A stretch of 6,100 nt of DNA from Candidatus Aerophobota bacterium. Lineage in GTDB: Bacteria > Aerophobota > Aerophobia > Aerophobales > B3-G15. Made by a program: the position numbers and the translations under genes. The number at the start of each line of letters is the position of its first letter. Position 1 is the first letter of the stretch. The notes under the pieces were generated by a model. It did not search any database. It had not been told where the DNA came from and was given only the letters and a program-made list of their open reading frames with translations. The stretch spans positions 1 through 6,100 of the forward strand of contig JAUWZM010000120.1 in the NCBI GenBank assembly GCA_030615365.1, given 5' to 3'. Of this stretch, positions 1 to 6,100 are shown piece by piece.

Positions 1-141
1 TCTATACATAGAATTTTTACCCGACCAATCAGGGTGGCTGATAAGATGAAAACCGGTGTAAGGTCCATAGTATTCTATATTAGGACAGGCACCTCCACCA
101 AATATCTCCTCTGTCCCTGTTCCATGAAAAGAAGGGGGCCA
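1..141. repeat. Terminal direct repeat, left copy (circular overlap)
   Basis: These 141 bases are identical to 5960-6100, compared base by base. The repeat lies wholly inside the GH172 gene and encodes residues 253 to 299 of it. A terminal repeat of this kind is what an assembler leaves when it walks around a circular path. The length equals a common maximum k-mer size (141), so it is best read as the overlap of a closed path and not as a biological long terminal repeat. One copy should be removed before annotation, giving a 5,959-bp unit. Confidence 0.96.
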
Positions 142-897
142 TTTCTCCCCATCAATGAAGATCATATCATCTCCCTCTCCCCACCAACCACCAATGATGT
201 TATCTACATTCAAAAGACAGCCTACGTAGTTTCCCTTTCCCTCAGCTTTTAGAATAACATAATTTTCCTCTCCGGTAAGGTTCTTTCCTATATCCCCGGT
301 TTGATTTTCTGGAGTTAACTTCTCTCCTTCTGGCAAAATTGCCTTACAGGGATTCTCTCTTCTCCATTGAGCATGAAACTTGCCCAGTCCTTCCTCTAAC
401 TCATTATACTTCTCATAGTCTATATGATACCACAGCGCATCAAGCCCAAAAAGGTCAGATTCATTCGCTACTTCAATGACAGCTCTTTTAGAAAAGGGCA
501 TAGGAAAATAGCAGTTGATCCCATGGGTGTTAATGGATGGATCACCAGGACACACAGTTAACAAGAGGGAGGTAAAATACCGTACCCGGCAATGTCCAAT
601 TCCAAAGAAATCCCCTACAGGAACCTCTACGCTTGGTTTTTCCTCCCCATCCCAGTACATTCTAATAACCAGATTTCGAAGATAAAAGCGATCCATGGAT
701 AGTATGGTAAAGTAAATGTGCTGAATGCATCCGGGATTTTTGATATCAGCTAAAATTGCCTTTTCTCCAGCAGGAATGCTTATCCAATCATGATTACCCC
801 CGCTCCTATCCCAACTGGATATCCTTTTACTACGATAATCCTTTAATCTTACCATACCTTCAAGAAAACTTGTCCATTTTTCATTTGGATTCTTCAT
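1..897 (-). CDS. GH172 / DUF2961 family glycoside hydrolase, N-terminal part (gene crosses the contig ends)
   Basis: This is the first 299 codons of a 428-residue protein that continues at 5959-5570 once the circle is closed. The family (DUF2961, CAZy GH172) forms jelly-roll oligomers. Characterised members act on fructofuranosyl dianhydrides (difructose dianhydride I synthase/hydrolase) or D-arabinofuranosides, so a furanoside-type substrate is plausible but unproven. The family hallmarks are clear: GGWWGEGDD at about 236-244 and FHGTGTEE at about 257-264. By comparison with the Bifidobacterium enzyme (recalled, not aligned here), E241 and E263 are the candidate catalytic pair. Other conserved blocks are SSWDRSGGNHDW near 27-38, PVGDFFG near 93-99 and INTHGINCYFPMPF near 122-135. 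The protein begins MKNPNEKW with no signal peptide, so it is probably cytoplasmic. The ATG at 897-895 is preceded by GAAGGGAG with a 7-nt spacer. It lies 199 bp downstream of the GH116 gene, with its own promoter-like sequence in that gap. Confidence 0.93.
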   Translation of the reverse strand, partial: MKNPNEKWTSFLEGMVRLKDYRSKRISSWDRSGGNHDWISIPAGEKAILADIKNPGCIQHIYFTILSMDRFYLRNLVIRMYWDGEEKPSVEVPVGDFFGIGHCRVRYFTSLLLTVCPGDPSINTHGINCYFPMPFSKRAVIEVANESDLFGLDALWYHIDYEKYNELEEGLGKFHAQWRRENPCKAILPEGEKLTPENQTGDIGKNLTGEENYVILKAEGKGNYVGCLLNVDNIIGGWWGEGDDMIFIDGEKWPPSFHGTGTEEIFGGGACPNIEYYGPYTGFHLISHPDWSGKNSMYR

Positions 898-904
898 TTT
901 TTAA

Positions 905-912
905 CTCCCTTC
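905..912 (-). promoter_or_regulatory. Ribosome binding site of the GH172 gene
   Basis: On the coding strand GAAGGGAG stands 7 nt (TTAAAAA) before the ATG at 897-895. This fixes the start as MKNPNEKW, upstream of the first conserved family blocks. Confidence 0.75.
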
Positions 913-966
913 ATAGTTTTATAGGTTGAGTATTATCAAAAAGTAATCAACGCCTTAGTTTCTCTA

Positions 967-981
967 AAAATAGCCTATTTT
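967..981. repeat. 15-bp perfect palindrome in the GH172 leader
   Basis: AAAATAG-C-CTATTTT has 7-base arms around one central base, about 70-85 bp upstream of the GH172 start codon. It would lie in the 5' leader if transcription begins at the promoter at 1033-1060. It could be an operator half-site pair or a weak AU hairpin. It lacks the GC-rich stem of an intrinsic terminator. A second, shorter palindrome (AATAAA-CA-TTTATT) lies at 993-1006. Such symmetry arises easily by chance in AT-rich DNA. Confidence 0.35.
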
Positions 982-1019
982 ATCAGATATAAAATAAACA
1001 TTTATTCAATGGTAAAACT

Positions 1020-1034
1020 ATTGTTTCTAACAAT
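1020..1034. promoter_or_regulatory. Candidate operator palindrome at the GH172 promoter
   Basis: ATTGTT-TCT-AACAAT has perfect 6-base arms around a 3-base centre. It overlaps the downstream end of the putative -10 box and covers the expected transcription start, a position where a bound repressor would block initiation. The symmetry and position are seen directly. The operator role is inferred, and no regulator gene is present in the window to pair with it. Confidence 0.4.
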
Positions 1035-1060
1035 CATAATTCATATAAAAATTTTGTCAA
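1033..1060 (-). promoter_or_regulatory. Sigma-70-type promoter for the GH172 gene
   Basis: On the minus strand a perfect -35 box TTGACA (1060-1055) is followed after 16 nt by TATGAT (1038-1033), one mismatch from the consensus -10. Initiation would fall near 1026, giving a leader of roughly 130 nt before the ATG at 897. It lies in the 199-bp gap after the GH116 stop codon, so the GH172 gene can be expressed separately from the upstream pair. The surrounding AT-rich sequence raises the chance of a fortuitous match, but both boxes and the spacing are good. Confidence 0.55.
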
Positions 1061-1096
1061 ATCTAACTCAAATTTGGTTACAATGATACTATGAGC

Positions 1097-3709
1097 TCAT
1101 TCCATAAATCTTGTTAATTTTAACTCCTGGTTTTGTCTTAATCCTACTGTTTCTGGAAATATTAAATTTTCTCCTTTGACTGTAACAGAAATCTCTTTTT
1201 CCCCGGTTGTGGTGACCATACTTGCCTTGCACTTTCCAGCGTAACACTCAGGAATTTTAAGGCGTAAAGATTTGATCTTTTCACTGCCCCAGAGAATCCT
1301 TATCTTAGCCATGTATGAATTTTTGGTAATTTCTTGAAAGAATTTTCCCCAACAGGTATTCGTGGAGAAGAAACATCTGAAATCCTCAGGATTTATTCTG
1401 GGATCAAATCCGAGTTCGTTCTTTAACCCATTAAAACTATATCCGGAAAGGGCAAGGAGAACTGACCAGCTTGCCATCTCCCTTGAATAATGACGCACTT
1501 TATCCCCGGGCTCATCATATGGATTTCTCCTCATCCCATCGTGACGTTCTCTTACACCCTTTACAATGGTAAGTCCTTCTCGGATAAATCCCTCATGTAT
1601 CAAATGAGCTGCTACCTGATACTCAACTCCTCCCCATACTCCATCGCAGTAAGGGAATGCAGGTTTTGGTCTTTTTCCCCTGGGCCAGGAACAATTCAAA
1701 AGTCCCTTTTCATCGTTAAAGCATGCAGGTCCTCCGTGATAGTTATAATGTTCAAAGAAATTATTTCGCCAATTGTACTTGAATATGGAAAGCAAGGCTG
1801 AGTCTATGTGCTCTTTTGGCAGTATTCTTTCCAATCCCGCTACTTGGGCAAGCCATTCCCCAAGGAGCTGATCGGAGAAACAGCCTTCTCCATATTGGTA
1901 TTTTAAAATTTGACTGGAATCGTATTTTTGGATATAGTACTCTCCGTTAAATAGCTGTTGGTCAAGGTGTTTCACTCCTTTTTCATAGAGCTGGTGGTAA
2001 GTCTTAGCCGATGCATTATCTCCTAACGATTTTGCCATTTCCTCTGCTGCTTTTAATGCTCCAAGGTAAAGGGTTCCCATCATAGTGTTTGGTCCATAAA
2101 ATTCTACATCATAGGTGTTGTGCTGCTCTCCCTCCATTATCCCATCTTTGTCCTTATCCCAGCCATCCCAGGCAAATTCTAGAGCTTTTTTGGCTTTTGG
2201 CCAGAGTCGATGAAGAAACTCATTGTCTCCGGAAAGCTTCCATTCCCGGTAGAGCCTTATTATGCATCCCATCTGTCCATCAGCGGCTGGCTTCGCACCC
2301 CATCTTTTTGAACCAAGAGGAAGAATAGTTCTAAAGACCATATTACCCATCTCATCTGTATTAGTCAAAAAGTCCACCTCTCTCATGGTTCGCTCCAGTT
2401 GAGGGAACAAAAAAGCCACTGTCTGTTCATAGTTCCACACATGGGTACAATTTAAAGGACAAAATTCCCTGTCATTCAAGCAGCCCTCAAATCCGTAAAA
2501 ATTACCATCAGAAAGGCGAAAACAGGTATTAGTCTTTATAGTAGAGGCCTGGCTTGATACAGCATCAAGAACATAAGAGGGTAGGGTGCTTGAGAAAAGA
2601 GCGCTATGAAAGGATTTGGTTTCTTCCTCAAGTCTATCCAGGTTACTTGCCACATATTTAGCTACATCCCAGGCGTCCTTGAACTTGGTGGCATAATATG
2701 TCTTAAAGATCTTTCTTTCCTCACCTTTTGCAAGTGGTAAAAGATTCCAGTATTTTAACATATTGGGAAAATACCAGGTTAAAATAACAGGGATTTTTTC
2801 CTTTTGTCCAGGGGAAAGTCTCAGGATTACACCCAATGTGGCTACATCGGTTTCTCCCTCTGGGCTGGCTTTTGCCTCAGGCTCCTCGGACAGGCGTTCT
2901 TTGTATTTTAACTCATCCCAGAATTTTTGAGGACCCTCCCACCACATTCCTTTTAACCAACGCAGGCAATAGGTAACATTTTTTGAAGTGGTTAATAGTC
3001 CCATGCTGCCAAATTTGGGATCATCCAAAGGGTATTTTAAACTTGTCATCTTAATGCCGGAAAAGTTGTTTTCTTTAATAAATTCATTAAGATTACTGCC
3101 AAAGAGTGAAAAGCGTCTATCATCCAGATTAAATATATTATGAGTATCTTCAAATTTGCTTTTACCATCATAACCTATAGGATTGAGAAGGTTCGCCGCT
3201 AATAAGACCTCTACTTCTTTTTCAGAGGTGTTTTCAATGGTAAAATTAAATATCGCCACTGGCAGGCCCGAATCAAAATCGTTTAGTGGAATAAAGGGAT
3301 TGAAAGCCGTAAGGTTAACATTGATGGGTGATTCAGGTTCAATGAATTCGATACGAGCAAAGGGATAGGCACCGGTAAACCTTGCATCCCTCATTCTGGG
3401 AAGACCTGTTGAAAGCAAGCTATAAATCTTTGCATAAGGTGGTAGAGTTCTTGATTCCAGCACCCTGACAAAGGGCTCTTTATCTTTTTCTTTTGCTCTT
3501 ATGGCAAAGAAGGAACAAGGTAAATTAAAGCCTTTGTTGGGACGGTTAAATATCTCCCAATCTCTTAGCTGACCCCTTCCCCCCAGTGAGATTGTTCCTG
3601 TACCAATGCCTCCAATAGGAAAGGCTATTTGCGATAGAGCCTTTCCTTCAAAAGTTCTCTGGGGACCAAAATGAAAAAGCTCAGAATCAGTGTAGGGAAT
3701 TTTTGACAT
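1097..3709 (-). CDS. GH116-type glycosidase (glucosylceramidase/GBA2-like, DUF608)
   Basis: This 870-residue enzyme has the two-part build of family GH116: an N-terminal beta-rich domain (about 20-380) and an (alpha/alpha)6-barrel catalytic domain (about 385-760). A short beta-rich tail follows to 870. The N-domain opens with the hallmark AFPIGGIGTGTISLGGRGQL (29-48) and DWEIFNRP (50-57). The catalytic domain carries FEGC (407-410), NCTHVWNYEQ (420-429), LFPQLER (434-440) and NTYDVEFYG (531-539). E408 as nucleophile and D534 as acid/base are my assignments by remembered alignment to characterised GH116 enzymes. Near the end, WGGVEYQVAAHLIHEG (692-707) and SREMASWS (742-749) match the family's sugar-binding region. 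Family members are retaining beta-glucosidases, beta-xylosidases or N-acetylglucosaminidases; specificity cannot be fixed here. No signal peptide is seen, so it is probably cytoplasmic. The ATG is preceded by AGAGG with a 9-nt spacer. It follows the sulfatase-like gene by 77 bp, probably in one transcript. Confidence 0.92.
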   Translation of the reverse strand: MSKIPYTDSELFHFGPQRTFEGKALSQIAFPIGGIGTGTISLGGRGQLRDWEIFNRPNKGFNLPCSFFAIRAKEKDKEPFVRVLESRTLPPYAKIYSLLSTGLPRMRDARFTGAYPFARIEFIEPESPINVNLTAFNPFIPLNDFDSGLPVAIFNFTIENTSEKEVEVLLAANLLNPIGYDGKSKFEDTHNIFNLDDRRFSLFGSNLNEFIKENNFSGIKMTSLKYPLDDPKFGSMGLLTTSKNVTYCLRWLKGMWWEGPQKFWDELKYKERLSEEPEAKASPEGETDVATLGVILRLSPGQKEKIPVILTWYFPNMLKYWNLLPLAKGEERKIFKTYYATKFKDAWDVAKYVASNLDRLEEETKSFHSALFSSTLPSYVLDAVSSQASTIKTNTCFRLSDGNFYGFEGCLNDREFCPLNCTHVWNYEQTVAFLFPQLERTMREVDFLTNTDEMGNMVFRTILPLGSKRWGAKPAADGQMGCIIRLYREWKLSGDNEFLHRLWPKAKKALEFAWDGWDKDKDGIMEGEQHNTYDVEFYGPNTMMGTLYLGALKAAEEMAKSLGDNASAKTYHQLYEKGVKHLDQQLFNGEYYIQKYDSSQILKYQYGEGCFSDQLLGEWLAQVAGLERILPKEHIDSALLSIFKYNWRNNFFEHYNYHGGPACFNDEKGLLNCSWPRGKRPKPAFPYCDGVWGGVEYQVAAHLIHEGFIREGLTIVKGVRERHDGMRRNPYDEPGDKVRHYSREMASWSVLLALSGYSFNGLKNELGFDPRINPEDFRCFFSTNTCWGKFFQEITKNSYMAKIRILWGSEKIKSLRLKIPECYAGKCKASMVTTTGEKEISVTVKGENLIFPETVGLRQNQELKLTRFME

Positions 3710-3718
3710 TGTTTTTTT

Positions 3719-3723
3719 CCTCT
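3719..3723 (-). promoter_or_regulatory. Ribosome binding site of the GH116 gene
   Basis: AGAGG on the coding strand is followed by a 9-nt A-rich spacer before the ATG at 3709-3707. The match is moderate. It supports the start MSKIPYTD, about 28 residues before the first conserved family motif. Confidence 0.6.
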
Positions 3724-3786
3724 ATTGATGGGCTTTACGCCCTCTCTTAATCTTTCCTGCTTAAGGATCTTTTTGGTCAGTGGTAT

Positions 3787-5268
3787 CTATTCCTTATCCT
3801 TGGACCAGAGCTTCTTTATTCTTTCCATATTTTTACCTTTTAGAAAGTAAGGGATGTAACCTGCTGGACCAGGCCAGCCATCCCAAAAGCGGCATCCCTC
3901 AGGAAATTCGGATTCACCGTTGCTCCTCAGCCAGGCCATGAGAGCAGGATCGGTTCCTCTGCTTTTTATCTCATCAAGAGCTGATTCACGCATTCTTGCA
4001 ACTATTGCTGGATTTTCCGCTGCCACATTTTCTAGTGAGCCGTATTGGGTTAAACGAGAGTTCTCAGGTTTTGCGGTAAACTCAAGATACCAATCCGAAT
4101 CGAAAGCTGTGAAAAGTATCTTTTCAGGATTAAGCTTCCAGTTATCAGCCGATATGCCTGAAAGTGCAAGTTTTCGTGGTCCTTCTTTTCCTTCACGTAC
4201 GAGAGCAAGGATATTGTGAGAATCGAGTCCATCCGGGATAGGAAGCTTTGCCAGACCCATAATCGTGGCAAAGACATCCTGAGGCTGCACGATGATGTTA
4301 CTGTGTCCATTTCCTCCTTCTGGCAGGTATATGAACATGGGTATATGAGCTTCCTGCTCCCGAACAGGGTGGTTTTTACCAAATTTGGAACGCTCACCAA
4401 CATTTGTTCCATGATCAGCAGTGAAAAGTATGGCTGTATTTCTGGCAAGGCCGGTCTGATCCAGGGTATCTAAAAGTTCTCCAAACCATCTGTCCATCCA
4501 AGTTACCTTTGCTGCGTAAAAAACCTTAAGACGACTCTTTACTGCCTCTGATAAATTTTTCTCATTTCTAATAAGGAAAGAGCGGGGATCTACCCGCCCA
4601 TCATACCCAGGAGTTTTATCATACATCTTAATGAACCTTGGGGGTGCCTCCCAGGGCTCATGGGGGTCGAAGGAATCAACCCATAGCAGAAAATTATCGT
4701 TAGAAGAAACATTATCTTTAAGCCACTTGGAGACGGTAAGGAAGAGCTTGGCAACGTTCCAGTCTTCTTCTTTCTTGCGCCTTCGATTTGCACGAAAGTA
4801 TGAGTCATAAATAGAGTCTTTAGCCAGATTCTTATCAGCAAAATCAAATAGAGAATCATGTTGCCAGTTTTCAGAGGGTACTGGCAGTGAATCCATCCAG
4901 GGGCGATCTACTTCTCCACCCCGAATGAAGTTCCAGGCCTGGAAAGGCCAGTCAAGGTTATGGCCACCATTAATAAGATGTGGGGTATCGTGAATAAGCT
5001 GAGTGCGGTATCCTGCTTCATCCAGTACCTGGGGGAAGGTGAGCGTATCGAAGCGGAGAGGCCTCCAGGGATGAAAAGGACCACCGTATTTACCTGTAAG
5101 TGTATCTATTCTGTTAGGTATGGTGGGATAACTTGCTGAATAACAGTGATCAAATACCCATGATTTGGCAGCTAATCTATCTATATTAGGTGTATGTATC
5201 CAGTTGTTCCCATTGGCACCAACATAATCATATCTTAAAGTGTCAACAATCACAACTATAATATTCAT
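3787..5268 (-). CDS. Sulfatase-superfamily hydrolase/transferase with Thr in place of the formylglycine residue
   Basis: This 493-residue protein has the alkaline-phosphatase/sulfatase fold (Pfam Sulfatase). It opens on the first strand with the metal-binding aspartate (IIVVIVDTLRYD, D9 and D14). HTPNIDRLA follows at 25-33, then the nucleophile region YPTIPNRIDTLTGK (47-60), DPHEPW (201-206) and the second metal site TADHGTN (283-289). GKNHP lies at 297-301. The signature C/S-x-P-x-R-x4-TG is present with T49 at the nucleophile position (codon ACC). This excludes the usual Cys/Ser-to-formylglycine modification. Threonine nucleophiles are known in related phosphodiesterases, phosphoethanolamine transferases and lipoteichoic acid synthases, so a phospho-substrate is as likely as a sulfate ester. 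No signal peptide or membrane segment is seen, unlike those transferases. AGGAGG stands 5 nt before the ATG. It is first in order of the three genes and likely co-transcribed with GH116 (77-bp gap). Confidence 0.9.
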   Translation of the reverse strand: MNIIVVIVDTLRYDYVGANGNNWIHTPNIDRLAAKSWVFDHCYSASYPTIPNRIDTLTGKYGGPFHPWRPLRFDTLTFPQVLDEAGYRTQLIHDTPHLINGGHNLDWPFQAWNFIRGGEVDRPWMDSLPVPSENWQHDSLFDFADKNLAKDSIYDSYFRANRRRKKEEDWNVAKLFLTVSKWLKDNVSSNDNFLLWVDSFDPHEPWEAPPRFIKMYDKTPGYDGRVDPRSFLIRNEKNLSEAVKSRLKVFYAAKVTWMDRWFGELLDTLDQTGLARNTAILFTADHGTNVGERSKFGKNHPVREQEAHIPMFIYLPEGGNGHSNIIVQPQDVFATIMGLAKLPIPDGLDSHNILALVREGKEGPRKLALSGISADNWKLNPEKILFTAFDSDWYLEFTAKPENSRLTQYGSLENVAAENPAIVARMRESALDEIKSRGTDPALMAWLRSNGESEFPEGCRFWDGWPGPAGYIPYFLKGKNMERIKKLWSKDKE

Positions 5269-5273
5269 ATAAT

Positions 5274-5279
5274 CCTCCT
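5274..5279 (-). promoter_or_regulatory. Ribosome binding site of the sulfatase-like gene
   Basis: A full AGGAGG on the coding strand sits 5 nt (ATTAT) before the ATG at 5268-5266. It is the strongest Shine-Dalgarno sequence in the window. The start places the metal-binding strand at residues 3-9, the usual position for a cytoplasmic member of this family. Confidence 0.85.
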
Positions 5280-5348
5280 GGTATACTATAAAGCAATGTC
5301 AAAACTTAACCACAGTGATACTTTAAACTAATTACTGAGACACCAAGA

Positions 5349-5429
5349 TAGTCTGGTGGTCAATATAGTCTCATAGTCTGGTAGTCCTGTAGTTGGGTAG
5401 TCCTATAGTCCTGTAGTCTGGTGGTTCAA
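5349..5429. repeat. Degenerate 8-bp tandem repeat array (TAGTCYKG)
   Basis: About ten units with an 8-bp period are seen: TAGTCTGG, TGGTCAATA (9 nt), TAGTCTCA, TAGTCTGG, TAGTCCTG, TAGTTGGG, TAGTCCTA, TAGTCCTG, TAGTCTGG, TGGTTCAA. Nearly all begin TAGT. There is longer-range order too: TAGTCTGGTGGTCAAT at 5349-5364 returns at 5414-5430 with one inserted T, and TAGTCCTGTAGT occurs at 5382 and 5406. The units are too short for plasmid iterons and lack CRISPR repeat-spacer structure. Slipped-strand expansion followed by decay is the simplest origin. Confidence 0.85.
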
Positions 5430-5432
5430 TGT

Positions 5433-5465
5433 CAGATTGCTTCGTCACCTCACTCCTCACAATGG
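5433..5465. repeat. Dispersed intergenic repeat-like element (ATTG...CAAT)
   Basis: The sequence starts CAGATTGCTTCGTCACCTC and ends CTCCTCACAATGG. It resembles, from memory, the imperfect palindrome AGATTGCTTCGTC...CTCCTCGCAATGA found scattered between genes in many bacterial genomes. The ATTG (5436-5439) and CAAT (5460-5463) ends pair as an inverted repeat. Only one copy is in the window, so its repeat status rests on recognition, not on copies seen here. Confidence 0.45.
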
Positions 5466-5504
5466 AGAACAAGGAACCTCACATTTCTTAGGAAAACTCG
5501 CCCG

Positions 5505-5536
5505 TTACTCATCATGTTAGAATGAGAGTAATTTTT
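5505..5536 (+). terminator. Terminator-like hairpin on the plus strand
   Basis: TTACTC(A)TCAT pairs with ATGAGAGTAA across a 6-nt loop (GTTAGA) with one bulged base, giving a 10-bp stem followed at once by five T's (5532-5536). The order suits termination of plus-strand transcription, yet no plus-strand gene is present. Read on the minus strand, downstream of GH172, the hairpin is preceded by A's and followed by CGGG instead of a T-tract. The stem is AT-rich and weak, so function is doubtful. Confidence 0.3.
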
Positions 5537-5569
5537 GCCTTGAATTAAAATTATCTCTGGATTCGGCTG

Positions 5570-6100
5570 TCAAATTTTACCCTCAGCTATTTTAAGAATA
5601 TCATCCCAGAGTGCAGAAGCCTTCTGGTAGTCTTCTTTGTCAAATGCTTCATTGATTTTTCCCAATAGGAACATTATTTTTTTTCTATCCACACCGGGAA
5701 GCTGGACCAAAGAGAGAATTCCTCCCCCTTTTTGCATTGTCTGGTAAATTTTTCTTTCCTTTTCTATGAGTTTTTCCCCTTCTAAGGGTAAAATGGGAAA
5801 TCTTTTTTTTGCAGGAAGCAGGGAGGCAAACTCTTTATGAGGTTCATTTTGATACCAGTAAGCTACACTGGAATAATCATTAGCTAAGTTATTCGCATGA
5901 CCGTGTTCAAGGCTCACTTTAATTGATCTTTCAAACCTTATCGGGTCATTGACAAAAAATCTATACATAGAATTTTTACCCGACCAATCAGGGTGGCTGA
6001 TAAGATGAAAACCGGTGTAAGGTCCATAGTATTCTATATTAGGACAGGCACCTCCACCAAATATCTCCTCTGTCCCTGTTCCATGAAAAGAAGGGGGCCA
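5570..6100 (-). CDS. GH172 / DUF2961 family glycoside hydrolase, C-terminal part (continuation of the gene at 1-897)
   Basis: This is the 3' part of the same gene, encoding residues 253-428 and ending in TGA at 5572-5570. Bases 5960-6100 duplicate 1-141, so the unique contribution is residues 300-428. The joint is in frame: AGA (R299) at 3-1 is followed by TTT (F300) at 5959-5957. The conserved family block follows directly: DPIRFERSIKVSLEHGHAN, then DYSSVAYWYQ (residues about 304-338). After the catalytic fold comes a lysine- and glutamate-rich, probably helical tail (about 350-428) that does not resemble the core domain. The methionine at 5968-5966 (M297) is internal and is not a start. No convincing terminator follows on the coding strand. 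The next gene on the circle is the sulfatase-like gene, 301 bp downstream. Confidence 0.92.
   Translation of the reverse strand, partial: WPPSFHGTGTEEIFGGGACPNIEYYGPYTGFHLISHPDWSGKNSMYRFFVNDPIRFERSIKVSLEHGHANNLANDYSSVAYWYQNEPHKEFASLLPAKKRFPILPLEGEKLIEKERKIYQTMQKGGGILSLVQLPGVDRKKIMFLLGKINEAFDKEDYQKASALWDDILKIAEGKI
5960..6100. repeat. Terminal direct repeat, right copy (circular overlap)
   Basis: Identical to bases 1-141. It is the second reading of the same GH172 segment after one full turn of a 5,959-bp circle or tandem unit. It adds no new information and should be trimmed. Confidence 0.96.

Follow-up and report, generated by a model that had tools for sequence, protein, structure and literature searches.

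We found that the window, meaning the whole 6,100-bp stretch of DNA analysed here, is an entire contig, with the window ends being the contig ends, and that its bases 1-141 are identical to its bases 5960-6100, a direct repeat of 141 nt with 100% identity at a spacing of 5959. Upon removal of the overlap, a unit of 5,959 bp with a GC content of 41% remains, of which 90.3% is taken up by three minus-strand genes, encoding a sulfatase-fold protein, a GH116 enzyme and a GH172 enzyme. The features of the window are the following:

1..141, no strand: left-hand repeat of the 141-bp overlap, falling within GH172 at about residues 252-299
1..897, minus strand: GH172 (DUF2961) gene, first 299 codons, running on across the joint (PF11175, E 5.3e-62)
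1033..1060, minus strand: promoter-like site TTGACA-16-TATGAT before GH172 (11/12 matches)
1097..3709, minus strand: GH116 gene, 870 aa, probable exo-beta-D-arabinofuranosidase (PF12215 and PF04685)
3787..5268, minus strand: 493-aa hydrolase of the sulfatase/alkaline-phosphatase fold, Thr49 occupying the nucleophile site
5269..5569, no strand: longest non-coding spacer, from the GH172 stop to the sulfatase-fold start
5349..5422, minus strand: spacer array of degenerate 8-bp units, GACTANNN
5434..5458, minus strand: REP-like dispersed element; its minus-strand core is GACGAAGCAATCT
5570..6100, minus strand: GH172 C-terminal part in the linear window, 176 aa, stop at 5570 (PF11175, E 4.1e-24)
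5960..6100, no strand: right-hand repeat of the 141-bp overlap

Among solved structures, the GH116 protein is best matched by 8ic6, the exo-beta-D-arabinofuranosidase ExoMA2 (E 1.8e-151), for which the residues Glu431, Asp557, His446 and Arg483 have been named (PMC10509167). In the 8ic6 alignment, using a chain offset of 4 deduced from the residue spacing, the equivalents of these residues are E408, D534, H423 and R460, respectively, and all of them are invariant in a 21-sequence alignment. The protein carries the residues of a subfamily 4 exo-beta-D-arabinofuranosidase, and because these four ExoMA2 residues are kept, a role in D-arabinan trimming is likely. The unit resembles the D-arabinan cluster of Microbacterium arabinogalactanolyticum in bringing a GH172 (there ExoMA1) and a GH116 (there ExoMA2) together, in a GH116 that retains the residues matching the nucleophile, acid/base, His446 and Arg483 of ExoMA2, and in having no obvious signal peptide as judged by eye, whereas it lacks a GH183 endo-arabinanase, a transporter and a sugar kinase, and has a sulfatase-fold gene (PMC10509167). 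The GH116 and GH172 pair would probably trim alpha- and beta-linked D-arabinofuranose inside the cell.

The GH172 protein belongs to its family by PF11175 and by two aligned glutamates, Glu241 in WWGEG and Glu263 in GTGTE. The catalytic pair of GH172 we take to be Glu270 and Glu291 of alphaFFase1. The solved structure nearest to the GH172 of the unit is 7v1v (E 1.5e-82), a difructose dianhydride I synthase/hydrolase, with ExoMA1 (8ic8) ranking only fourth (E 2.8e-30), and because of this the predicted specificity of the GH172 for D-arabinofuranose is less sure. The 7v1v enzyme, alphaFFase1, is described as having alpha-D-arabinofuranosidase activity as well (PMC10509167). Additionally, Cys271 of the GH172 aligns with Gly299 of 7v1v and Asn253 of ExoMA1, and one partial relative (P0284) is labelled as coming from a marine sediment metagenome. 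Promoter-like sites occur 18 times in the window, versus a mean of 13.0 in shuffles, and the one at 1033..1060 is suggestive only. By eye, the stretches 1056-1090 and 5298-5322, located before the GH172 and sulfatase-fold genes, are alike (GTCAAA...TGATACT) and are perhaps a shared operator; the sequence of 1056-1090 also has two DNA matches in one related genome (G016), one of which a second search recovered.

Formylglycine (type I) sulfatases carry the motif C/S-x-P-x-R, with Cys or Ser as the nucleophile. The sulfatase-fold protein has neither at this position; instead, it has Thr49, which aligns with the Cys of 6hhm, and all 120 sequences of the alignment, comprising this protein and the 119 relatives closest to it (the best 120 of 1126 matches), carry Thr, Pro51 and Arg53. 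Because Thr stands at the nucleophile site in all 120 sequences, we do not call the gene a sulfatase by activity, and the group that bears the name, being of the Thr type, probably does not consist of formylglycine sulfatases. Correlations of codon usage between the three genes range from 0.77 to 0.92, and the three are ordinary bacterial enzymes of chromosomal type.

Next, we investigated the closure of the contig. A sequence-only reading had held that the window ends are identical over 141 bases and bound a 5,959-bp unit, which direct comparison of the ends bears out. Among overlap lengths of 100-399, 141 is the sole exact terminal overlap, and because the 5,959-bp circle has zero repeated canonical 15-mers, an exact end match of 141 bases is far beyond chance. 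Among the 80 loci of GH116 relatives, 29 cover a complete contig, and terminal self-overlaps of at least 12 nt are absent from all 29. The contig has the identical ends of probable assembler k length, here 141 bp, that mark a k-mer-closed (direct terminal repeat) contig. The same reading had explained the overlap as the k-mer at which an assembler path closes on itself, and this is supported both by a quoted MEGAHIT k-list that ends in 141 (PMC10914622), and by a toy de Bruijn model that returned the 6,100-bp contig with its 141-bp overlap. According to the same source, contigs from metaSPAdes and MEGAHIT keep end sequences of maxK length at points where repeats interrupt the assembly (PMC10914622).

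The toy model used k=141 and the 5,959-bp unit with random flanks, leaving out read errors, the reverse strand and assembler pruning. A free circle yielded a single 6,100-bp contig whose ends overlapped by 141 bp, and a tandem array with its flank edges missing gave the same two values, while flanked arrays of 2 or 5 units gave a 5,960-bp contig with no self-overlap; in a node-based variant the circle came to 6,099 bp and the arrays to 5,960 bp. Direct repeats of 60, 100 or 140 bp around a single copy left it unbroken, repeats of 142 and 200 bp gave contigs of reduced length overlapping by 139 and 82 bp, respectively, and repeats of 300 bp gave no overlap, so that of the repeat lengths tried around a single copy with flanks, only exactly 141 bp reproduced the contig. 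The earlier view that the source is either a circle or a head-to-tail array named the right main pair of alternatives, but omitted the limits that the model adds, namely that an array whose flanks are kept gives another contig, and that a single copy between exact 141-bp repeats also fits. Sequence alone does not establish a closed circle as a molecule.

The single-copy case corresponds to a false closure of chromosomal DNA, in which the ends of a linear segment would have been joined either via a conserved stretch of GH172 also present in a second GH172 gene or strain or via a chimeric read. From its start at 897, the GH172 gene crosses the joint without a stop and ends at 5570, giving a protein of 428 aa whose best relative shows 76% identity over 98%; the first 141 bases of the C-terminal part in the linear window (5570..6100) are the copy of 1-141. 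The 141-bp overlap is among the most conserved windows of the unit, with 1.8% of possible cuts at least as conserved, a post hoc score noticed after the fact that was built from 10 relatives per gene with spacers scored zero; this position of the joint gives a hint of closure via common gene sequence. However, the six sequences closest to the N part (P0241 to P0246) all rank within the top seven for the C part, and therefore no divergent paralogue appears to have been joined, an argument that counts against divergent and not against recent paralogues, with the two parts showing a weak rank correlation across 117 relatives (0.17, p 0.07). Furthermore, GH172 matches were found in 5/17 related-phylum genomes, in a single place each in the two best-matching genomes, and repeats of all lengths tried other than 141 bp failed with flanks. 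Overall, we regard a false closure as unlikely, placing it third among the readings.

A genuine free circle of 5,959 bp would be either a transient circle excised from the chromosome or a satellite-like replicon copied by outside proteins, with the 8-bp array being origin-like. It would account exactly for the contig and overlap lengths in the toy graph and for the seamless joint inside the GH172 gene, and the array itself is far above chance, with eight matches to GACTANNN in the window, seven of them in 5349..5422, against 0.21 expected. Against it, no replication or mobility gene was recognised: Pfam families of replication, mobility and integrase functions had no match in the three genes or in eight further ORFs of at least 60 aa, a scan in which the plus-strand frame crossing the joint was covered at 34-252 only. 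These eight ORFs had no significant Pfam match of any kind (best E 0.17), and seven of them had no match in PHROGs. DnaA-box-like sites also stand at chance (6 found versus 5.82 expected in the window), and the spacer 5269..5569 folds no better than shuffles (z = 0.69; 75/100 shuffles at least as good). Scans of the window for Rfam families and tRNAs returned no match.

The DNA of the unit had no match in 72,556 plasmid or 50,697 phage records, which also counts against a free circle. Protein relatives on the plasmid records number 5 for GH116, 440 for the sulfatase-fold protein and 131 for GH172, all below 60% identity; all five GH116 relatives lie on records of at least 140 kb, as do the eight matches listed for each of the other two proteins. 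As a plasmid, the unit shows neither a replication initiation gene nor a recognisable origin by Pfam, PHROGs and ORFs of at least 60 aa, with the DnaA-like sites at chance, nor a DNA relative among the 72,556 records, although an RNA-primed or other type of origin may be present. As a phage or virus, it shows no hallmark gene, its single PHROG match being that of the sulfatase-fold gene to one family of unassigned function (E 3.4e-50), and it has no related phage record; pattern scans of viral contigs confirmed no relative of the three proteins, and the array-derived pattern had no match in these contigs. We judge a free circle to be second to a tandem chromosomal repeat in likelihood, a tentative and rather doubtful alternative. 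A more specific form of it, a free 6-kb catabolic circle without a replication gene of its own, maintained in an uncultured bacterium through excision or outside replication and with the 8-bp array as its origin, is highly improbable in our view.

We also examined relatives of the unit in chromosomes. The nearest match of GH116 in a named genome is in an Aerophobetes MAG (67%). Among 80 loci kept of 545 encoding a GH116 relative, with flanks of 10 kb at most that were often cut by contig ends, none had all three genes together, GH172 was present in the flanks of 4/80 and a distant sulfatase (26%) in 1/80. Across the 17 related-phylum genomes, DNA of the unit matched in seven (with at most 17 first-look candidates scored per genome), sulfatase-fold relatives were found in 12/17, the best at 40% identity, and GH116 relatives in 3/17. 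In one genome (G006), a distant GH172 (35%) and a sulfatase (30%) are adjacent, in the order of the circle. None of the genomes examined showed a tandem copy of the cassette.

Upon examining the spacer repeats in the same 17 genomes, we observed the 8-bp array pattern once; the REP-like element in its 25-base form, allowing up to 3 mismatches, occurred in 1/17. The 13-base core GACGAAGCAATCT had 31 exact matches in 9/17 genomes, with zero for the reversed control; two genomes account for 20/31 of these matches, and none is in the genome with the nearest GH116 (G001). As a literature word, the core returned no on-topic paper, going by titles and the start of abstracts. Recombination at the spacer repeats could have produced an array or a circle, and it is possible that the REP-like repeat is a recombination site.

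Taken together, we consider an unresolved head-to-tail repeat of a chromosomal cassette to be the leading reading, with a probability of roughly 0.5; this value, like the standing of the two rivals, is a judgement and was not computed. Because the unit holds three ordinary enzyme genes and no recognised self-copying gene, a collapsed chromosomal repeat is likelier than a new plasmid or virus. The contig would be an unbranched loop of a short-read assembly graph at k=141, cut inside a gene with the cut k-mer kept at both ends; the source DNA would be the three same-strand enzyme genes (GH172, sulfatase-fold, GH116) repeated head to tail in more than one copy in a chromosome, and the outer flanks of the array would have been too thin to stay in the graph. 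Such an array is consistent with the contig that the toy graph gave upon loss of the flanks, with the GH172 gene being intact through the joint and sharing its nearest relatives between its two parts, with the chromosomal-type genes and the lack of recognised replication, mobility or integrase families, with GH116 relatives on only five of the 72,556 plasmid records, and with the dispersed REP-like core in the spacer. Weighing against it are that a free circle gives an identical contig, and the results from related genomes, namely the lack of any observed tandem copy, the three-gene set in 0/80 loci, and the rarity of the octamer array and of the 25-base REP-like form.

Contigs of this sort have been described in several settings. 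The unit is like the direct-terminal-repeat contigs of CheckV in having an exact repeat of odd length equal to an assembler k and a seemingly random cut, and differs in having enzyme genes only, with no recognised viral or plasmid hallmark (PMC8116208). Terminal repeats of such lengths were there attributed to likely circular templates cut at a random place, and 116,666 of 686,030 filtered contigs of the terminal-repeat sort were classed as viral; therefore, most such contigs were not so classed (PMC8116208). Elsewhere, a 141-bp exact duplication in a MEGAHIT assembly was judged a likely artefact, and small circular contigs were described for which tandem repeats remained possible (PMC11572364). 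The circles of the rat cecum metamobilome are similar to the unit in being small circular contigs, many of them without a known replication domain (a replicon domain was found in 160/616 circular elements), but they came from exonuclease-treated DNA with circularity tested by reads and, for some, by inverse PCR, whereas the unit is known from its sequence alone (PMC3913684).

Overall, the finding is real as a feature of the assembly, and the gene content is ordinary. K-mer-closed contigs are common, and if the contig is an assembly loop only, it is a caution against calling them plasmids. As a free circle, it would be an example of metabolic genes on a circle that lacks any recognised replication gene. 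As a tandem array, it would mean that an uncultured lineage has naturally amplified a cassette that probably trims D-arabinan.
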